Positions 31,607 to 40,909 of a stretch of 64,000 nt of DNA are shown here, in pieces. The stretch lies in assembly GCA_025201375.1 (NCBI GenBank), contig JAIWZP010000004.1, forward strand, positions 1 through 64,000. The letters are read 5' to 3'. The DNA comes from Gongronella butleri (Eukaryota > Mucoromycota > Mucoromycetes > Mucorales > Cunninghamellaceae). Under the pieces are notes generated by a model that saw only the letters and a list, made by a program, of their open reading frames with translations, was not told where the DNA came from and made no database searches. Every line of letters starts with the position of its first letter. Positions within the stretch are counted from its first letter, which is position 1. A program made the translations under genes and the position numbers.

Positions 31607-33046
31607 GATGGAGGTGTTGGAGAATGGATTGATGTTGTGGAGCAGGTAGAGAAAGGGAAACAAAGAGTAAAAAGAGAAGGGAGAGAAAAAAAAAAGAAAA
31701 AAAGAAAGAGGTGCAAATGATGGGGACGAGAAAAAAAATCAATGACCCCCTTTTTTCGTTTTTCCAGCGCAGCAAAAATTGAGCGCTAAAAAACATCACA
31801 CCAACAAGATGGTCCGTCTGTTTTTTTTTATCTCATTCACACTTGGAGGGAAAATTGGTGGTGCTGCAAGTGCTGCTGCTATCATATCATCATATTCTCG
31901 CAATTGATCACGCACATTTTGAGAGAAAATACAACAGTAATACACTACTCAACAGTATCATACTACGTACGCCCCCGGGGTATTACTGTATGTATTTCAA
32001 ACAAATTCAAGCTTACTCTACAGTATGATGATAAGCTGTTTGAGCTTGTTTGAAAAAAAAGCTACAGTATTTGATGAGCTCGTTTGAAATCGGATTTTCG
32101 AGCTTGATTGAAAAGCTTGATGAAAAAGCTTGAAAATATTTTTGCACATGATCACCCATGCTGGACATCTGTTGTGAACTCCCTGCCTGTGAAATTCCTC
32201 ATTTAAAGGACAAATCAAGCTTCAAGCTCAAGCTTCAAGTCGAGCTTGCTTGATTGAAAAAGCTTGTCCGAAAGCTTCTTGAAATTGCTGCAAAAAAGTC
32301 TCAAGAAAAAATTGAAGAACACGTCATCCACCAAAATGATGAAAATTCAGAAGAGCATACTACGTGCGTATGTAGAACGTATGATAGGTACCTTCTTCAT
32401 TATATTTTTCAAGCTTTCAAGCTTTTTCAAACACCAAAAAAATATGATAAAGCTTGAGCTTGTTGATTGAAATAAAATTTTGCATGTTTGCTACTTTGCT
32501 TGAGCTTGAGTCAAACTACTACAGTATAAGCTTTTTCAAACAAGCTTTCAAACACATGTTTAAATACATCCCAGTCTCATCGATGGATGGCAACATAAAA
32601 CTCGCGGAGAAGAAAATTCACTTTTTTCATTCCATTATCATCATACTGTAAAATCTTTACAGTATGTACAATTTTGTACAGTGTACTGTGCCGCGCCTCA
32701 GTGAGCATTGAAGTGAAATGTGAAAGTGCACGACTGCATGTCAATTCGTTATCACATGATAAGAATCAAGAACTTCAGATAAAAAAATGCATGGACGCCT
32801 CATCATCAAATACCGCGCTACTGTAGCACGAGGTGAAGTCTGGAATCATGGAATGCATCATGTCGAATTGCTGGATTTTGAGCACTTTGAATGCCTGGCA
32901 GTATTGAGCTGGTGTCCTGGTGATGTCTATGATAACTGCCTACGCGACGCATCACGCATTTTCCGCGCGCAAAAAAAAGAGGAAGAATCGAAACGGATCG
33001 CCGCGGGAAAAGAATGTAATACAGTAAAATGCTACAGTTTTATTTT
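31607..33046. repeat. AAGCTT-rich and TACAGTA-rich repeat region
   Basis: No gene is supported. From about 32025 to 32560 the sequence repeats AAGCTT-centred words (CAAGCTT, AAGCTTGA, TTCAAGCTCAAGC), many forming short inverted repeats with each other. TACAGTATGAT/TACTGTA words occur at about 31940-32075, 32520 and 32645-32690. A phrase at about 32868-32885 (ATTGCTGGATTTTGAGCA) resembles ones at 14325-14345 and 14515-14535, so the three gaps share sequence ancestry. Confidence 0.6.
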
Positions 33047-33120
33047 AAATTTTGAGCCACGAAAAAAAAAATTGAGCCACGAAGAGCAAAATTGAGCCAA
33101 CAAGAGAAAAATTGAAAGGG
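33047..33120 (+). repeat. Left inverted-repeat array (20-bp period)
   Basis: TTGAGCCAC occurs at 33052 and 33072, TTGAGCCAA at 33092 and a decayed unit at 33112, exactly 20 bases apart. They are separated by A/G-rich spacers such as GAAGAGCAAAA. Confidence 0.75.
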
Positions 33121-33577
33121 CTGTTGTGCTGGGTTGTCATCTTTCTCCGCTTTAATCGAACAAACAAAAAGAAAGGGAAAGTGGAAAAGGCTCTCAAAAC
33201 ATCTCTAGAAGTAAGCAAAGGAAAGAAAGCCGGTGGGTGGGTGGGCCAAGGGACCCAGCAGCCTTCTCTTCTTGCATAGTCGGTAAGCTCTGCGCATCTT
33301 TTGAGCATTACTGGAGACTATTCTGCGACGAGGGCTACCGTGCTGGGTCATCCAGAGACACAAAAAGACAAAGAAACAAACAATGAGGGGGCAGCGAATC
33401 GTGTTATCGAAGCGGTGTCTTGGGCTTGGTGAGGCTAGATGGGTGAGGATGCGGCATTGGTGTTGTCAGGCCCAGATTCTACGCCATCAAGGTGTTGTGG
33501 TGCAGCAAAGGATGGCCATCGTCGTCTTCGATGGGCAATTCGACAGGTGGAACACCTGTCGAGACCGGCAACGAGGG

Positions 33578-34078
33578 TCACCAATGAGCAGAGAGCCAAT
33601 TGGGCGTGATGAGAGTGGCAGATTGTGGGTGCGCGTCTAAAAAGGGCGCAAAATTTCGGGGATCAAGTGCGAAGGGTGCTACCGGTAGATCAAGAGTTGC
33701 AGGTGTGCCAATGACGTCTAGGGGCGAGCCAACGCGTTGGTTCATAATGCCTTGGGGTCGTGGGTGCCCGACACATAGAGGGCAAAATGCGTTATGTCGG
33801 CGGAAGAAAAGCGAAAAATTCGACGTGATGAGGGCCAAAAGCGCGTCAATGTGTTTGAACGTCTGAGGAGGGAGTCGCCACTCGACCTCACTGATCAAAT
33901 CGCGTGACGCCGCGTCGGCGGGATTGAACATGCTAGGGAAAAACACCGTCGAAAGATGGATACGCTTCTGAATGCAAGATTTCCACATGCGCGCCGCCAA
34001 CTGGTTGAGCGCTCGAAATCGCTTGCATCCAAATTTGTCGAGGCAGGCTTTTGTAGATATCACGCATACACAATCCAC
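33578..34078 (-). pseudogene. DIRS-like retroelement RNase H remnant
   Basis: A 166-aa open frame carries the C-terminal RNase H landmarks of DIRS-type retrotransposons. FNPADAASRDL corresponds to the NPADxxSR motif. Then come VEWRLPPQTFKHID (the EWxLxPxxF block) and FFRRHNAFCPL at the position of the usual DLFAxxxN block. SATLITPNWLSAHW stands for the usual ATLIxPxWxSxPWW. Upstream reverse transcriptase is not readable, and sequence downstream of the last motif continues only in shifted frames. It is therefore a broken fragment, lying inside the putative mobile segment and probably nested. Confidence 0.65.
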
Positions 34079-34099
34079 GTTCCACGGCTATAATCGCCA

Positions 34100-34780
34100 T
34101 CTTCAGCATTTTTTTGAACATTTTTTTTTCATTACGGAGGTATGGACCTTGCAGCAGGGGTGCGAGTATTGACGATGCACTATAGACGCGCTATTGACCT
34201 GCTGACGCGTGTAAAGTGCAAGTGACACGCTTTTGAAACTCTTTTGAAACGCATTTGACGCGTGTGGTGCGATTATTTTTTTCACGTCTCCTTTCTCATA
34301 GACAAATGTTGGCAGAAAGTGTGGTTCTCCCGACCTACAACGTCCACCAATATCTTAAAAAGCGAGTACAGAATTTGGGTACTGAACACATGTCGCGAAC
34401 GGGCAACAAAGGGTCGCAGGCCCGCCCGTGAGCTAGTTCACAGAAATCGCTTTTTACAAAACGCGATTTGATGGCCTTGGAGCAAGACAAGTGCCCGTGA
34501 AAATTATCCTGCAAAAGCTTCCAATCCGAGGGCACAAAAACAGCCATCTAGCTCCACTTGTGCACCAGCTAAAGAGCATTATGCATAGCAAAGCGCGTCA
34601 ATAGCCTTTTTCGTCGTTTAAAGATTCATTTTACATTCGAGGCATGAGCAGAAGCATATAAGAGTTAATTTCAATGGCAAATCTATCAGCCTCATGGAGA
34701 AGTTGCATTAAAAGCTTCACGATGGACCGTTCTCTTGCTTTAGGTCTCTTTTTCTTCTCCAGACCTCTTTTTCTTCTGCA
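34100..34780. other. Gene-poor stretch between the retroelement remnant and the TPR-like gene
   Basis: Short open frames only, on both strands. Some may be decayed parts of the retroelement (for example minus-strand 34335-34547), but no motif supports this. TTTTGAAAC is repeated near 34235-34252. Confidence 0.35.
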
Positions 34781-35224
34781 ATGGAGCAAGCGCGGAACCG
34801 ATTGCCTCCACTGGGGCCAAACACACAGCACCTGGCGGTGAATTTGCAATACCTCGGTCGTTGTGAAGTGCATGTGCAGCGGCACGCTCTTTGTGGCTAC
34901 ATTGAACGTTTTCCTTTTGATGCCTGTTTATGGGCGATGCGCGCCCGTCTTGAGGAGGAGAACAGCCCTCGAGAGGTGGCAATCGCCATTGTCCGTCAAG
35001 GTCTTGAGCATTTGCCGGGAGATTGGTTTTTGCTGGCTACCTTGGGTGAGTAAAATGACAGAAAAAAAAATCCACCAGCTAAACTTGCGTTTGGAATCGT
35101 AGAGCGACTCCAACACGAACCTGAGCAAGCAGAGGAACCACAGCAGCACCAAGGAAGTCGACGTCAAGAGCGCCGTGTTCAAGGTCAACGTGCGCAAGGT
35201 CAGCGTGCACGAGGTCGGCGTTGA
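34781..35224 (+). CDS. Small TPR-like protein with Arg/Gln/Gly tail
   Basis: Two exons, 34781..35045 and 35103..35224, join through a GTGAGT donor to give 128 aa. The first exon shows helical repeats in a tetratricopeptide-like rhythm: LAVNLQYLGRCEVHVQRHAL, YIERFPFDACLWAMRAR, VAIAIVRQGLEHLPGDWFL. The second exon is a Gln/Glu-rich stretch that turns strongly basic, with a GQR-type repeat (VQGQRAQGQRARGRR) at the end, suggesting nucleic-acid contact. I do not recognise a named family. It lies between the retroelement remnant and the FEN1-like gene, converging on the latter. AATAAAA follows near 35255. Confidence 0.6.
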
Positions 35225-35413
35225 TGAACCAAGGCGTTCAAATTACGGATGATTCAATAAAAAAGGGGATGGGAACGGAACGATCCAGTCGCAGGCGCAT
35301 GATCGAGGCTCCCTTTTTTATTCTCAATGGTCGACTGCGTGGATGGAAGAGATTGTGTGTCAAACAGCAAGAAAAAAAAAAAGGACGTGGTAGCACAGTG
35401 GACGGTGGCGGGC

Positions 35414-36464
35414 CTAGTCGCCATTCATGGCATCAGCAATGGTGCGGCAATCCCTGCGCACACGGTCCTCCCTAAACCCCAAACACGTCATTAAAGTTGT
35501 AAAAAAAAAAATCTTTTTTTACTCACTTGAATTGCGCCTTTTGCTTCATGATGTTCAAAACGTCTTGCACGATGGGTGCCTGCCAGTGCAGGTCACGGCA
35601 GCTATTTGGAATTGGTGGAGGCGTCTCGAATTGATGACGCGTTTGCGCGTCGTGGAATTCCTGTTCCTTTATCATAGTCAATGCACGCATTGGTCCCACA
35701 CTGAAATGACTTGCATCCAAAACAAAACACAATTGCGCTAGCTGCAGAGACACGCGCACAAAAAAAAAAAATTAGCCGCGTTGCGATTTGACACATTGGA
35801 AATGTACCCAATTCGTCTTTTACCTGGCGCAGTGTGATCCCAAGGTCACTACAGGCAATTGATGGATCAATCTCCTGGATAGGTAGGCCGCGGCCGGGGG
35901 GATCCATTAAGTTACAGAGCAACTTGCCACCAAAGCACAAGACAGTCAAGTCGTCCACGGCTGCAGCATATGCCATGCCCTGATGCGCGAGGAGCGCACA
36001 AAGGGTGGCCGCATCGCCGTCGGCCCGGATGACAGGCATACCCAAAGATGTGAGGAGCTGCATAGATTCCTCTTCGTGTCGCGCCTTCATTTGCGCTTTT
36101 CGTCGCGCCTTTTCCGTTGCACCGGACACATCCAAGACATCAAAAACAAAAATTGGTTTTATCTGGTGCTTCACAAGGCGGATGACTGCCAAATACAACC
36201 CGACAAGATGGCTGCATTGAAAAAAAAAAATCAGATACTTTCTTTCTTTCTCTCTCTGTCTTACGGCGGATTTGCTTACGCAATTGGCTGACCAAGTGGA
36301 GAAGTGAGAATTGCACCGTTTGAAGCCTTGAGTGACATGTGGAATGTCGATGCGCAGCAGGATGCGTCGATTGCGATATGGCGAGAGGTTAGATCTTTCA
36401 ATTCGCAATTTTTAATTGCATCTTGAGTGTGGTTTGCCACTATTTGGCGAATGCTTTGTGACAT
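35414..36464 (-). CDS. FEN1/XPG-like protein with degenerate active site
   Basis: Four exons, 36464..36280, 36211..35824, 35741..35527 and 35471..35414, give 281 aa. The order of blocks follows FEN1: RHIAIDASCCASTF (N-region with the first Asp), SPLGQPIAHLVGLYLAVIRL, KPIFVFDVLDVSG, TSLGMPVIRADGDAATLCAL, AYAAAVDDLTVLCFGGKLL and LMDPPGRGLPIQEID. By hand alignment several metal ligands of FEN1 are lost. The second Glu of the EAEAE motif is Ala, the second Asp of SEDMD is Thr, and the Asp of GCDYC is His. The DGxxPxxK loop is also gone. Human FEN1 is 380 aa; the PCNA-binding C-terminus is absent. It is probably not a nuclease; a structural or DNA-binding role is inference. It lies inside the putative mobile segment, divergent from the Fanzor gene. 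Confidence 0.72.
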
Positions 36465-36921
36465 TTGAGCGACAAGGAGAAAGGGAGCGAGAGATACAGA
36501 GAAAGAAAAAAAGCAAAGGATGGCCGGCCCACGAGATGGACGGTGGTTGAAAATCAATTATGCATCCACTTCTTTTGTGCAACACACACTTCTTTTGGGC
36601 CTGCGCCCCTTTTCCTCCATGTTAAAAGACCTTGCCAAGCCACAGCAAAATGGCTGTCATTCAACAGGTGTCTCCTCGAGGTGCGAATATGTGTATAAAA
36701 AAAAGGATGGCCAAAGGAAAAAAAAAAAAAGCTAATTGATGGATGATCGTTTTTTACATTCCAAAAAAGGGCCTTGCGTTTGGCAAACCAGCGGACAATG
36801 AAATCGTACTTTTGAGCTGGCGTCCTCCCCCCTTTTTTTTTTGTTTTCTTCTTTTTCTTGCTTGTTTCCTTTCTCACCGCCCCGTTCATTGCTCTTGTTG
36901 CCCTTGAGCTCAATCGTCAGT
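36465..36921. promoter_or_regulatory. Divergent region between the FEN1-like and Fanzor genes
   Basis: 457 bp with A-runs (36696-36703, 36719-36731) and a T/C-rich block at 36830-36875 ahead of the Fanzor start. Either or both promoters lie here. No ORF of note. Confidence 0.45.
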
Positions 36922-39792
36922 ATGGATTTAGCGGGAACTCATCACAAGCACCATCTGTCTGTCACGTACAATGTCCTTATCAACATGTCTCCTCTGACTT
37001 TTGCTGCGCACGGCACGATCGAGGCGATTCAAGCGGAGCAGCAAGTGACGCGACAAGAAGCAACACTTTTGCGCTTGCAGGCGCTCAAGGAGCGCAATCG
37101 TAAGCACCAGTAAGAGCTCTTTTTGCCGATCTCATCTTTTTTTTTTTTGCCCCTATTAGGCTTGGGTGGTCCTCCATGCCGCGCATGCCACTCTGTGCTG
37201 CATCGAAGCCCCAATGACCCGCGCTGTCCATTCAACGCCCAAGTCCAGCAGCGTAAGCCGCGTTCCCACGGCCTTCTCCTTTCCCCTCTTTTTTCATTTT
37301 CATTATTGTTGATTCTTTTTTTTTTTTTGCAGAGCGCGAACGTCGCCAAGGTGATGATGAGCGTCGACGCCTGGCGCGTAATCCGCGCGCCATTCCTCGC
37401 GCACACTTCACGAACGCGCACCAATACCTACAAATGTATATGCCGCGCTCTCAGGCCTACACTCGCGTATTCTCATTCCACCGTTTCGTGAAACCTGAGT
37501 TCCACCGAGGCTTGCTGGGCCGAGTTCAAGCTGCTCAACATGTATTGGGGCAGGCGATCCCCATCCTCCATTTCTTCCTAAACGACTTTTTGCTTGTGCA
37601 CCCGATGCTTGCGACGCGATCACTGTTCACACAAAATGGGCTTTACCAGACGTCGATGATTTTCCGCGGAACGATGCAAGACGACGGCGAGGAAGGCGAC
37701 GTGGGAAATCGTCTCGAGGACATCCCGGAGGCACTCGTGGATCATTGGCCTATATTTGCTCAAGAACGGACGTCGGCGACGTCCGGCGTCTTGGTGCCGG
37801 CTTCACCAACGTCCTGAGCGAGGAGTTCAAGAAGCTTGCGCCGGTCTTCCGCCAGCATGTTGCCGATCTTTTTGAGATGCGCATCAAAGCGTTTGTCCGC
37901 TTTCGCATTCTCAGCACACAAGACGAGGTAAGTCCTCATTTTCCCCCTTTCCCTTTCCCCGTTCGCTAAGTTCATTTCTTTTTTTTATTTTTTATTTTTT
38001 TTTTTTAGGCGCCGCGTGCTCGCGTCATTGGCGCCATCAAGGATTTCATCTGGACACAATTCTCTTCCGAGGAGCCGCTTTTAATTGCCGCTCAACAGGC
38101 CGTCGGCGACCATGGCGCTGCGGAAGACGATGACGACCCGGCGTTCGAAAGCGAAGATGATGATTTTGACCTATCCGATCTCGACGACGACTCACAATCG
38201 GTGGCCGATGCGGATCAAGACGACCAAGAGGGCATGAACGCTGCGGGCGGCGCGCTTGGACCGCTACACCCAGTCACCGTCGCCGACATCCCCAGAGGGA
38301 TTCCTGAGGCGCTTCGCCCTTTGACACTGTCCATTTTACAAGAACTTGTGGCATGGAAGCATCCCGAGCTAGGTCAAGTGACCATCCGCACCCTGCGCAC
38401 GTCCCCACATCTGACCGTGACCACGCATGTGTCGATTTTGCGCGCGTACGACGAATTCAGAGCAGCACACCCCGACGATGATCAACATATCCCCTCTTAT
38501 ACCCTATTGCCCATGCCCAATAACCGCCCGCGCTTTGTCACAATCGATTCGAAGAATTTCAGAACGTTTTTGCCTAAGCGGATTATCCCAGATGGCCACC
38601 CCGCCCGTCAAACGGCCCCCTTGCCCAGAGACACCGACCTCCCGCCATTTGTCAACCACATGCCTTTGTTCTGGGCGGCTTTTGATTTTACGCAAGTCGG
38701 CATCGCGAGGTAAAACAAAGGAAAAAAAAAGAGCCATTGAGAGAAAAATGGCGCGTCTCATTCTTCCTGTCTTTTTTTTTCCATCTCAGTCTTGAAGCAT
38801 TGCAAAATGGCGTGTTTTTGGGCAGAACATTTAGCGGCGTCATCAAGACGGATGGCACTCAAGCACATGTCTCTTTTCGTCGGACCATTGGTCTTGCCAA
38901 GCCGCCGCCGCTCAAAGATGGTGAGATGGGCCAGATGGGCCTGGAAGGGTTTTCGGCTGTTGGTATCGACCCCGGTCGGAAGACGGTAGTGACAGCCGCC
39001 TACGTGCCGACTGAGGGCGACATTGACGCGACGACGACGCGACGTGCTGTCAGACGCGTCACGCTGCAAGAGCACAGATCATTGGCCGGCGAGCAGCCCC
39101 GACAATTGGCTTTAGAGCGCCGAAAGCAGCAAGTGGCACCGAACCTTGGGCCTCGCGACGTCACGACGATGAAGGAGCTTGAGACCAATGCGCCCTTGAA
39201 GCGAACCGCCGATGTCGACTCTTTCCGGGAGTACGCGACGTACATGTTTGAACACCGGCCGTCATTTGAGCAATTCTACGGTGAGCAGGCCCGAAAAGAC
39301 CGATTCGCTGCGTACCGCGGCCGACAACGTGCCATCGCCACCACCGCCAATGTCATCATCAACGGCAGCCCCAAATACGACAGGCAGCAGCGGTCAGCCA
39401 CCAAAAAACGCCGCAATCGCCGTCGCCGAAAGAAAAAGAGCCGTCGCCGACGCGCCGGACGCGCCGCCGCCGCGCAAGAACAACTGGCGCAACTACAAGA
39501 GCGTGAGGTCGCATTGCAAGACGCGCAGGTTGAATTGAATCAGCAACAGCACCAACAGCAGCAACGACGCGACCTTCTTGCACCGGACCTCGCTGCCGCC
39601 GTCGAGGAAGCGCAGCGGCAAACAGCAGCATTGGAGGCGGATGCCCTCGCCCAAACCTTCGCAACTAATCGCGCCGCGCAACAAGTGTCACGCACGACCA
39701 TCGCCACTGCCACCGCGCCACCAGAGCTTCAAGAGTAAAAAAAAAAAAACCATACATCCACGCTCGCCAATTCCATCATGGACAATCGCTTA

Positions 39793-39842
<50 letters not shown>

Positions 39843-40497
39843 GCCAATGCGTCCCATGAAGCAGCAATTTAAAGGCAACAACCCCACTTTACCCGGCGTG
39901 CCTCTAGTGGGCTTTGGTACAGGCATCATATGCAAAGAGCACAACAAGATCCGCGGCTTGCCAGTTGGCAAATCCACGATGGTTCTTAAGCATCTGGAAC
40001 AGCGTCAGGCGCGTGGCCAGATCATCACAATCCGCACCGACGAATTCAAGACATCCAAAGTAGGCATCCAAGGAGGAGGCAATGGCGAGTGAGAAATAGA
40101 ATTCTCACAATTACCTTTTTTTTTTCTTTCTCTCTTTTTTCTTTCACAAAAGACCTGCTGGGTGTGCGGCGCCCCCGCCCGTGAGCCGCTGCGCTATGAT
40201 GCAGATGGCCACCAAACGTATACCTTACATGCCACACTGGTGTGCGCTCATTGCCAGCGTGCAATGGGACGCGACGACGTGGCCGCTGCCAACATGCTCG
40301 CCATTATCACCAACCGCGCAACCAATGGCACGCGCCCAGCGCCATTGACCCGCCCGCGTCGCCCTGACGCCAACCCGCCCGCCGCACCCGCCATTGCCCA
40401 CCCGCCCGATCCACCACCAACCACCCGACGCCGCCGCTATTCGCCGGTGATCGACCAAGACCCCCGCCCAGCCCAGCGCCGCCGTGGCGGCCAGTGA
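36922..40497 (+). CDS. Fanzor (eukaryotic TnpB-like RNA-guided nuclease), frame uncertain in N-terminal half
   Basis: Exons 36922..37099, 37160..37252, 37333..37927 (with break), 38009..38709, 38790..39734, 39843..40059, 40153..40497 give about 1,000 aa. Catalytic half: RuvC-I GIDPGRKTVVTAAY (Asp codon 38968), and PLVGFGTGI where TnpB RuvC-II would lie, without its Glu. An alternative Glu follows about 42 residues on in RTDEFKTSKTC (codon 40042). The zinc finger is CWVC...CAHC, and RuvC-III is GRDDVAAANM (40267-40290). Fanzors show this Glu relocation. A long insert after RuvC-I holds a basic Arg/Lys cluster (39400-39460, possible nuclear signal) and a Gln-rich coiled coil. Exon 2 has a CxxC...C knuckle; exon 4 has an acidic stretch. 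Exon 3 changes frame: one frame stops at 37815, another is open to 37927. Removing 37737-37822 as a GT..AG intron restores the frame but lacks the usual T-run, so a real frameshift remains possible. The start codon is the first Met after a T-rich leader. Confidence 0.88.
39735..39842 (+). other. Fanzor intron with 46-base T run
   Basis: The intron between the RuvC-I exon and the RuvC-II exon ends in 46 consecutive T (39795-39840) before AG. The in-phase join (GA|G) and the continuation into PMRPMKQQFKGNNP support it as a real intron. Homopolymer length here is prone to sequencing and replication slippage, without coding effect. Confidence 0.7.
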
Positions 40498-40676
40498 TTC
40501 CATTTTTTTTTTTTGTGTGCCGACGCCTCGAAGGCGTTTTCATTGTGTCGCCTGCGCGACCTTTGATTAAGGACTTATACAAAGGTAAGAAATAAGAAAA
40601 GAAGAGAAAAAAAAAGTTTGTTGTGGCTCAATTTGTTGCTCATTGACTCAATTTTTCTCCCTTTGACCCAAAATTT
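40498..40676 (+). ncRNA. Candidate guide-RNA scaffold (omega/fRNA-like) downstream of Fanzor
   Basis: Between the Fanzor stop and the right inverted repeat are two perfect hairpins. 40523-40537 has stem ACGCCT/AGGCGT with loop CGA. 40547-40560 has stem GTCGC/GCGAC with loop CTGC. TnpB and Fanzor guide RNAs are known to come from the 3' end of the nuclease gene and the element's right end, with the guide just outside. By analogy the RNA would end near 40676 and its guide would be read from the flank starting GTAATATAAT. This is inference; a hairpin pair could also be a terminator-like 3' UTR structure. Confidence 0.35.
40612..40676 (-). repeat. Right inverted-repeat array (20-bp period)
   Basis: On the minus strand TTGGGTCAA (40671-40663), TTGAGTCAA (40651-40643) and TTGAGCCAC (40631-40623) are spaced exactly 20 bases. 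They mirror the left array at 33047-33120. Confidence 0.75.
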
Positions 40677-40909
40677 GTAATATAATAGTAAGGTCGAAAA
40701 TATGATGTGGAACGCGCAAAAAGTCTGCACATAGCACGTAGAAGAGAAGCCAGCACGGGCACGAATTAAACCTGTGCCCATGTCAACAATTTGGCGATCC
40801 CGCAGCGCGCGGGATTAAAAATGAGCGTGTTTTGCGATTAAAACCCAGATGGAGCGAGACTGCGTTGGGTCCATTTTTTTTCTTTTTTCTTTTTCCTACT
40901 TTTTATATC
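40677..40909. other. Flank between the mobile segment and the next gene
   Basis: Ordinary promoter-like sequence with a T/C-rich leader. It contains the short inverted repeat GGGCACGAATTAAACCTGTGCCC (stem GGGCAC/GTGCCC, near 40756-40779) and CCCGCAGCGCGCGGG near 40799-40814. Confidence 0.4.

Follow-up and report, generated by a model that had tools for sequence, protein, structure and literature searches.

Fanzor1 transposons of Gongronella butleri and a candidate guide RNA spliced by the host

How might a Fanzor, a eukaryotic RNA-guided nuclease carried by a transposon, take its guide from flanking host DNA when the terminal repeats of the transposon lie between the guide-RNA scaffold and that flank? 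The question is raised by a Fanzor gene of the soil fungus Gongronella butleri at positions 36922-40497 of the window, which here means the whole stretch of 64,000 nucleotides (nt) at the start of contig C45 (JAIWZP010000004.1); the genome comprises 33.0 Mb in 110 contigs. The gene itself appears to be another member of the known Fanzor1 group; the new part is a 3' arrangement common to two groups of Fanzors, which we read as a candidate host-spliced guide RNA. We consider it moderately probable that the host spliceosome joins the scaffold to a guide in the flanking host DNA and removes the terminal repeat in the same step. The 3' splice-site arrangement falls outside the interval 36922-40497, to which the initial annotation was limited.

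Behind the gene, on the forward strand, a candidate omegaRNA scaffold (40519-40584) was aligned with those of nine other copies of the same group (clade A, defined below). It contains two predicted stem-loops and the tail UACAAAG; the z-score of its fold is -2.04, and 9 of 200 shuffled sequences equal it. The scaffold is directly followed by a candidate terminal spliceosomal intron (40585-40688, 104 nt, G/GTAAG...ATAG/), which holds the right terminal repeats. The similarity between copies stops at 40685-40690, where the window reads ATAG/TA with the G at 40688. The right end is adjoined by the TA target-site dinucleotide (40689-40690), and the predicted guide would occupy 40691-40705 of the flanking host DNA, its length being taken by analogy from the 14-15 nt of SpuFz1 (Saito et al. 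2023, PMC10432273). Splicing at these sites would set the scaffold end UACAAAG directly against TA or TG plus flank, as a guide RNA requires. The right flanks of near-identical copies differ, which is consistent with a role as guides. Rfam at its gathering thresholds gave no match within the window.

The Fanzor family of this genome was surveyed with the exons of the window copy. The exon 5 search gave 26 matches, which correspond to 23 loci; the exon 6 and DNA searches added C34:513.5 kb, C12 and C30, and the total is at least 26 loci. Two groups were distinguished by sequence similarity and by the kind of 3' end, not by a tree. Clade A consists of the window copy and nine others with the same 3' end, and its members found through exon 5 are 27-90% identical to the window copy. 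Clade B consists of L029-L033, L035, L040 and L041, which are 25-32% identical to the window exon 5.

The order of hairpin region, GTAAG, terminal repeats and final AG was found in 18 of the at least 26 loci, ten from clade A and eight from clade B. At the putative 5' site, GT and the G at position -1 are present in all 18 and GTAAG in 17, the remaining locus (L041) having GTAAA. When both groups are taken together, positions -1 to +4 are invariant, +5 is conserved in 17/18, and +6 is only loosely conserved. The terminal AG was found in 17 of the 18 loci (the copy on contig C1 has AT). For L019, L031 and L033 it was this pattern that defined the right end; where the end was fixed independently, by the similarity break between copies or by a terminal repeat, the AG is present in 14 of 15. 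All 18 loci have a branch-like CTNA[ACT] motif at a distance of 18-39 nt from the end, and in 16 of them no other AG stands between this motif and the terminal AG. The candidate intron measures 61-182 nt in 17 loci, and 1334 nt with a nested transposon in L034; for comparison, the coding introns of the window gene have 60-108 nt. Pyrimidines make up 80-95% of the final 20 bases in clade B. Of the features of a U2-type intron, the GT-AG borders, the 5' consensus, the branch motif and the AG-free interval are thus present, and the pyrimidine tract is absent in nine of the ten clade A loci.

A shuffle test asked for three things together: GGTAAG at 50-200 nt from the end, AG as the last two bases, and a branch motif without AG between. 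This combination was found in 14 of 17 loci and in 7 of 68,000 shuffled versions of their 3' regions, with L034 left out for its nested transposon; the C1 copy, L022 and L041 failed. Because the criteria were set after the sequences had been seen, and the loci are related, the test is a yardstick and yields no P value.

Several other observations also weigh against splicing. The terminal AG is part of the transposon end itself, as the left end of the C12 element (CTGT) and the similar ends without a Fanzor indicate; the AG alone is therefore no sign of selection, and the case for splicing is confined to the 5' site, the branch motif and the spacing. Next to the AG, the 3' sites of clade A have no pyrimidine tract: the pyrimidine fraction is 0.45-0.55 in nine of ten, whereas the six coding introns of the gene have 0.80-1.00. 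An earlier AG ends 11 nt upstream in L022, the AG is lost in the C1 copy, the 5' site of L041 is GTAAA, and the pattern-assigned ends of L019, L031 and L033 belong to the same side of the balance. The motif search found no 3' arrangement in L018, L020, L024, L025, L026, L027, L028 and L042. These eight loci are mostly fragments (L020 is cut by the contig end, and L025 is only an end repeat); L018 reaches exon 7 yet lacks the arrangement.

The scaffold structure also gives a mixed picture. RNAalifold on the MAFFT alignment A1 predicted 0 pairs and hence no common structure. Seven of the ten clade A scaffolds were folded singly, and besides the window the z-scores were -0.45 (L017), -1.31 (L023), -2.15 (L045), -3.02 (L046), -2.15 (L022) and -0.97 (L021), so that the folds of L017 and L021 barely surpass those of shuffled sequences. 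Among the six of eight clade B scaffolds folded, the values were -2.20 (L029), -1.97 (L035), -1.26 (L031), +0.34 (L040), +0.48 (L030) and +0.52 (L033), the last three being no better than shuffles.

These 3' ends might alternatively belong to ordinary Fanzor1 elements, with an unspliced guide RNA, the terminal repeat within the scaffold, and GGTAAG merely as a conserved scaffold motif. Such is the arrangement of SpuFz1 and SfAV Fanzor1 (PMC10432273, PMC10711439). In clade A, positions -7 to -5 and +8 vary no more than the splice-site bases do, and GTAAG could therefore belong to a longer conserved RNA motif; the bases ahead of the motif are also somewhat alike in both groups (ACAAAG and ATAAAG), and the transposon ends would account for the terminal AG. 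However, hairpins and guide would then be 61-182 nt apart, with sequence of variable length between them. Moreover, the positions fully conserved in both groups are only -1 to +4, followed by 17/18 at +5 and a variable +6, as would be expected of a 5' splice site, and clade B combines branch motif, pyrimidine tract and AG at ordinary intron spacing. An unspliced guide RNA is considered rather unlikely.

The terminal intron might also be spliced for another purpose: it could expose the transcript to nonsense-mediated decay or, in the manner of an exon trap, pick up a polyadenylation signal of the host. In some organisms, messenger RNAs with an intron past the stop codon are degraded, and the window intron begins 88 nt past the stop codon. 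This would leave unexplained, however, why the 5' site lies right after the predicted-fold region, and why the 3' site coincides with the last bases of the element, where the guide must begin. We regard such a purpose as distinctly improbable.

If the guide RNA is made by the host spliceosome, as we prefer to read these ends, the Fanzor transcript would read past the transposon right end into host DNA. The spliceosome would then excise the terminal intron together with the terminal repeats, and fuse the scaffold to TA or TG plus flank, which would serve as the guide. In the homing model of TnpB, a break at the empty site is repaired from the copy with the transposon. The mature guide RNA might likewise lead the Fanzor to the empty site, and the break would be repaired from the transposon-bearing copy. 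The terminal repeats would be free to satisfy the transposase without being part of the guide-RNA scaffold. We infer the read-through into the flank, the splicing step and the use by the Fanzor from the DNA sequences. For the Fanzors of G. butleri as a whole, it is held with somewhat better than even confidence that every transposon right end acts as a 3' splice site, the spliceosome making the guide RNA and the terminal repeats being freed. The arrangement is common to two distant groups with different transposon ends and must therefore either have had two origins or be old; if old, it is perhaps widespread in Mucorales.

If true, this would be a new way of making Fanzor guide RNAs, and would tie the Fanzor nuclease to the eukaryotic splicing machinery. 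It would end the conflict in which the same bases serve both transposase and nuclease. It would also help to explain the moves of Fanzors between transposon superfamilies, since an element ending in AG would suffice. Searches for guide RNAs that expect the scaffold right at the element end would overlook a class.

Does the gene beside this 3' end encode a Fanzor1 nuclease? A protein search identified it as the deposited BC940DRAFT_102048 (P0001, 752 amino acids) of Gongronella butleri, Mucorales. The initial annotation had proposed seven or eight exons; seven were found, at 36922-37099, 37160-37252, 37333-37927, 38009-38709, 38790-39734, 39843-40059 and 40153-40497 of the forward strand, with coding introns of 60-108 nt. 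Exon 1 has a counterpart 83% identical in the L017 copy. When P0001 was mapped to the window, four GT-AG introns were obtained, all identical to those of our model in that part; the same mapping set the end of exon 5. Exon 2 contains a zinc-knuckle-like motif (C-x2-C-x4-H-x7-C), which is kept in five of the five clade A copies read. We know of no N-terminal zinc-knuckle-like domain in Fanzor1.

The catalytic motifs follow one another in TnpB order, as proposed earlier from the letters alone. Exon 5 contains RuvC-I (GIDPGRK, 38962-38982; the Asp is residue 311 of P0001), followed by a basic cluster and a Gln-rich helix. Exon 6 contains RuvC-II (DEFKTSK, Glu at 40042-40044), and exon 7 the zinc finger (CWVC, 40156-40167; CAHC, 40243-40254), RuvC-III (RDDVAAAN, 40270-40293) and the stop. 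Two fingerprints were reported for Fanzors, namely DPG in RuvC-I and a displaced RuvC-II Glu that precedes the zinc finger by six residues (Yoon et al. 2023, PMC10711439). P0001 has both, the alternative Glu being that of EFKTSKTCWVC. The profile PF07282 (OrfB_Zn_ribbon/TNB), the kind of search suggested at the outset, matched P0001 with 32.3 bits (cut-off 26.3, E 1.1e-7), and exon 7 alone with only 16 bits. Judged by its sequence, the window gene belongs to Fanzor1 because of this match together with the DPG and the displaced Glu. In clade B, L029 and L032 contain DPG, ExxxxxxCxxC and RDVNAARN, and scored 51.1 and 46.3 bits with the same profile.

The motif D-X(125,275)-[TS][TS]-X-X-C4-X(5,50)-RD was described for these proteins by Bao and Jurka (2013, PMC3627910). 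P0001 agrees with it in order and residues, and the spacing from the RuvC-I Asp to [TS][TS] is 324, beyond 125-275, because of the basic and Gln-rich insert. The unusually long insert between RuvC-I and RuvC-II that had been noticed is therefore real, but it is not peculiar to the window copy: in the L017 copy the two sites are about 325 residues apart, and other aligned copies have a basic cluster at the equivalent place. The predicted structure (predicted local distance difference test 51.8, predicted template modelling score 0.31, from an alignment of 16 rows) is too poor to place the Asp/Glu/Asp active site. A sequence search of the PDB gave nothing significant (best E 0.24 and 0.047), and the NCBIfam profile guided_TnpB scored 17.2 bits with P0001, far under its cut-off of 100 bits. 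The Fanzor2/IS607 serine recombinase TnpA (PF00239) had 0 matches in the genome; the same search was positive in 10 of 14 control genomes.

Is the window copy itself still active? The earlier suggestion of an intact catalytic half that may be expressed was borne out for the catalytic motifs; the reading frame, however, changes within exon 3, which the initial annotation had missed, and the N-terminal half is out of frame. The frame change was bracketed to about 37760-37805 by comparison with the L017 copy, in which the frame is open over the same stretch, and it is because of this change upstream that the deposited model begins at 37877. As read from its frames, the window copy keeps the catalytic residues with the N-terminal half out of frame, so that it probably makes no full-length protein; its product would be at best a truncated protein or RNA. 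Another copy of the whole element, L016 (C1:9009-15436), is without exons 1-2 and most of exon 3. In it GINPG replaces GIDPG and AT replaces the terminal AG, and by these changes the predicted catalytic site and the candidate splice site are both lost.

These defects suggest that the window copy and its RNA might be an inactive relic, whose likeness to splice sites was inherited from active ancestors; this would be compatible with the mechanism proposed for the family. The window copy, however, keeps its catalytic motifs, scaffold, 5' site and terminal AG, and we treat its decay into a relic as possible, if doubtful. Its RNA, spliced as proposed, could still guide a protein from another copy. 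In L023 (C34:513.3-514.3 kb), an internal deletion fuses the first codons to the last exons, and the scaffold, 5' site, branch motif and AG are retained. This locus somewhat resembles the 'ghost' elements of Spizellomyces.

What kind of transposon carries the gene? The window and C1 copies are alike over 33027-36745 (92%) and 37871-40685 (89%). The left end of the whole element lies at 33035-33100 of the forward strand (CAGTTTTATTTTAAATTTTGAGCC); it has three TTGAGCC repeats, is inverse to the right end, and is preceded by TA, its position being good to about 12 bases. The element is thus about 7.65 kb long, apparently with TA beside both ends. An element limited to about 36847-40690, as suggested by the first copies, was ruled out by the C1 copy and the left repeats, which place the start at about 33035. 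The same element contains a FEN1/XPG-like frame on the reverse strand (35602-36411, stop to stop; PF00867 26.8 bits, cut-off 24.9); this region was found again at C1 (92%) and beside the C25 copy (71%). Three non-Fanzor frames were scanned with Pfam and only the XPG-like one matched; no search aimed at a transposase was made.

The ends of the two groups differ, with CTGT beside TA for the clade A type and AGTG for clade B. TA, as expected on either side of a Tc1/mariner-type element, adjoins the right end of nine of the ten clade A loci, and the window and C12 elements apparently have it on both sides. In the C12 element, the left end begins with CTGT just as the right ends do; this ruled out the asymmetry between a right CAG and a left CTG as proof of selection for AG. 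Ends closely resembling the clade A right ends, with no Fanzor found, were observed at C18:51817, C78:710743, C16:608531 and C33:264247, and perhaps belong to other elements mobilized by the same transposase. The near-identical clade B pairs L030/L032 (98%) and L040/L041 (97%) lose similarity at or within two bases of AGTG. L030 is flanked by AGA/AGA and L032 by ATA/ATA, these being the clade B copies with a fixed left end; this would fit a CACTA-type element, which has CAC...GTG ends and a 3-bp target-site duplication. At their different sites, both have GCTTCA two bases before the element (n=2), possibly a target-adjacent motif.

The transposon nested in the terminal intron of L034 (4824-6003) is a different one, beginning with TACTGGATTTGTCCAATC; in L045, the same TACTGGATTTGTCCAATC-beginning sequence directly adjoins the right end from position 464. 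Elsewhere in the window, at 282-1331, there are repeats that also occur, at 70-80% identity and in several copies, in the initial 4 kb of contig C1; they are possibly subtelomeric.

All the proteins found by protein searches were from G. butleri, three for clade A (among the 7999 candidates with the most shared words, which were scored) and one for clade B. In viral contigs, the window protein found no relative; with the clade B profile, at least 176 of the 600 matched stretches listed encode a relative, and 80 loci were kept, which are provisionally taken as TnpB-like genes.

Among the nearest known systems, Fanzor1 was reported from Mucor, Rhizopus and Phycomyces, and in Mariner elements with TA target sites, and Fanzors of several exons were reported in Chlamydomonas; Fanzor and TnpB were then called functionally uncharacterized (Bao and Jurka 2013, PMC3627910). 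In the available text of that paper, 'EnSpm' and 'Gongronella' occur 0 times. The word 'intron' also has 0 occurrences in the main texts of Saito, Yoon, Xu, and Bao and Jurka, as does 'splic' in those of Yoon (PMC10711439) and of Bao and Jurka (PMC3627910). Among the papers listed by searches of an open-licence library, none described a spliced Fanzor guide RNA, as judged by title or the start of the abstract.

SpuFz1 from Spizellomyces punctatus is similar to the present system in being a Fanzor1 carried by a fungal transposon that has terminal repeats, and in its guide RNA, which is encoded after the stop codon and extends into the flank (Saito et al. 2023, PMC10432273). Its 75-nt scaffold covers the inverted repeat and directly continues into the 14-15-nt guide, whereas here the repeat lies in the candidate intron; its locus is a single open reading frame of about 2.1 kb, as compared with seven exons here (PMC10432273). 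The SfAV Fanzor1 likewise has DPG, the displaced Glu and a guide RNA at the right end; however, its terminal repeat and target-site duplication are predicted to lie within the scaffold, unlike here (Yoon et al. 2023, PMC10711439). In the IStrons of Firmicutes and Fusobacteria, the spread of a mobile DNA element is also tied to RNA splicing; a self-splicing group I intron removes the element from the host RNA, which makes the insertion harmless (Tourasse et al. 2014, PMC4227781). In the Fanzors of G. butleri, by comparison, nothing but the terminal repeat would be removed, as part of a spliceosomal intron, and the product would be a guide RNA.

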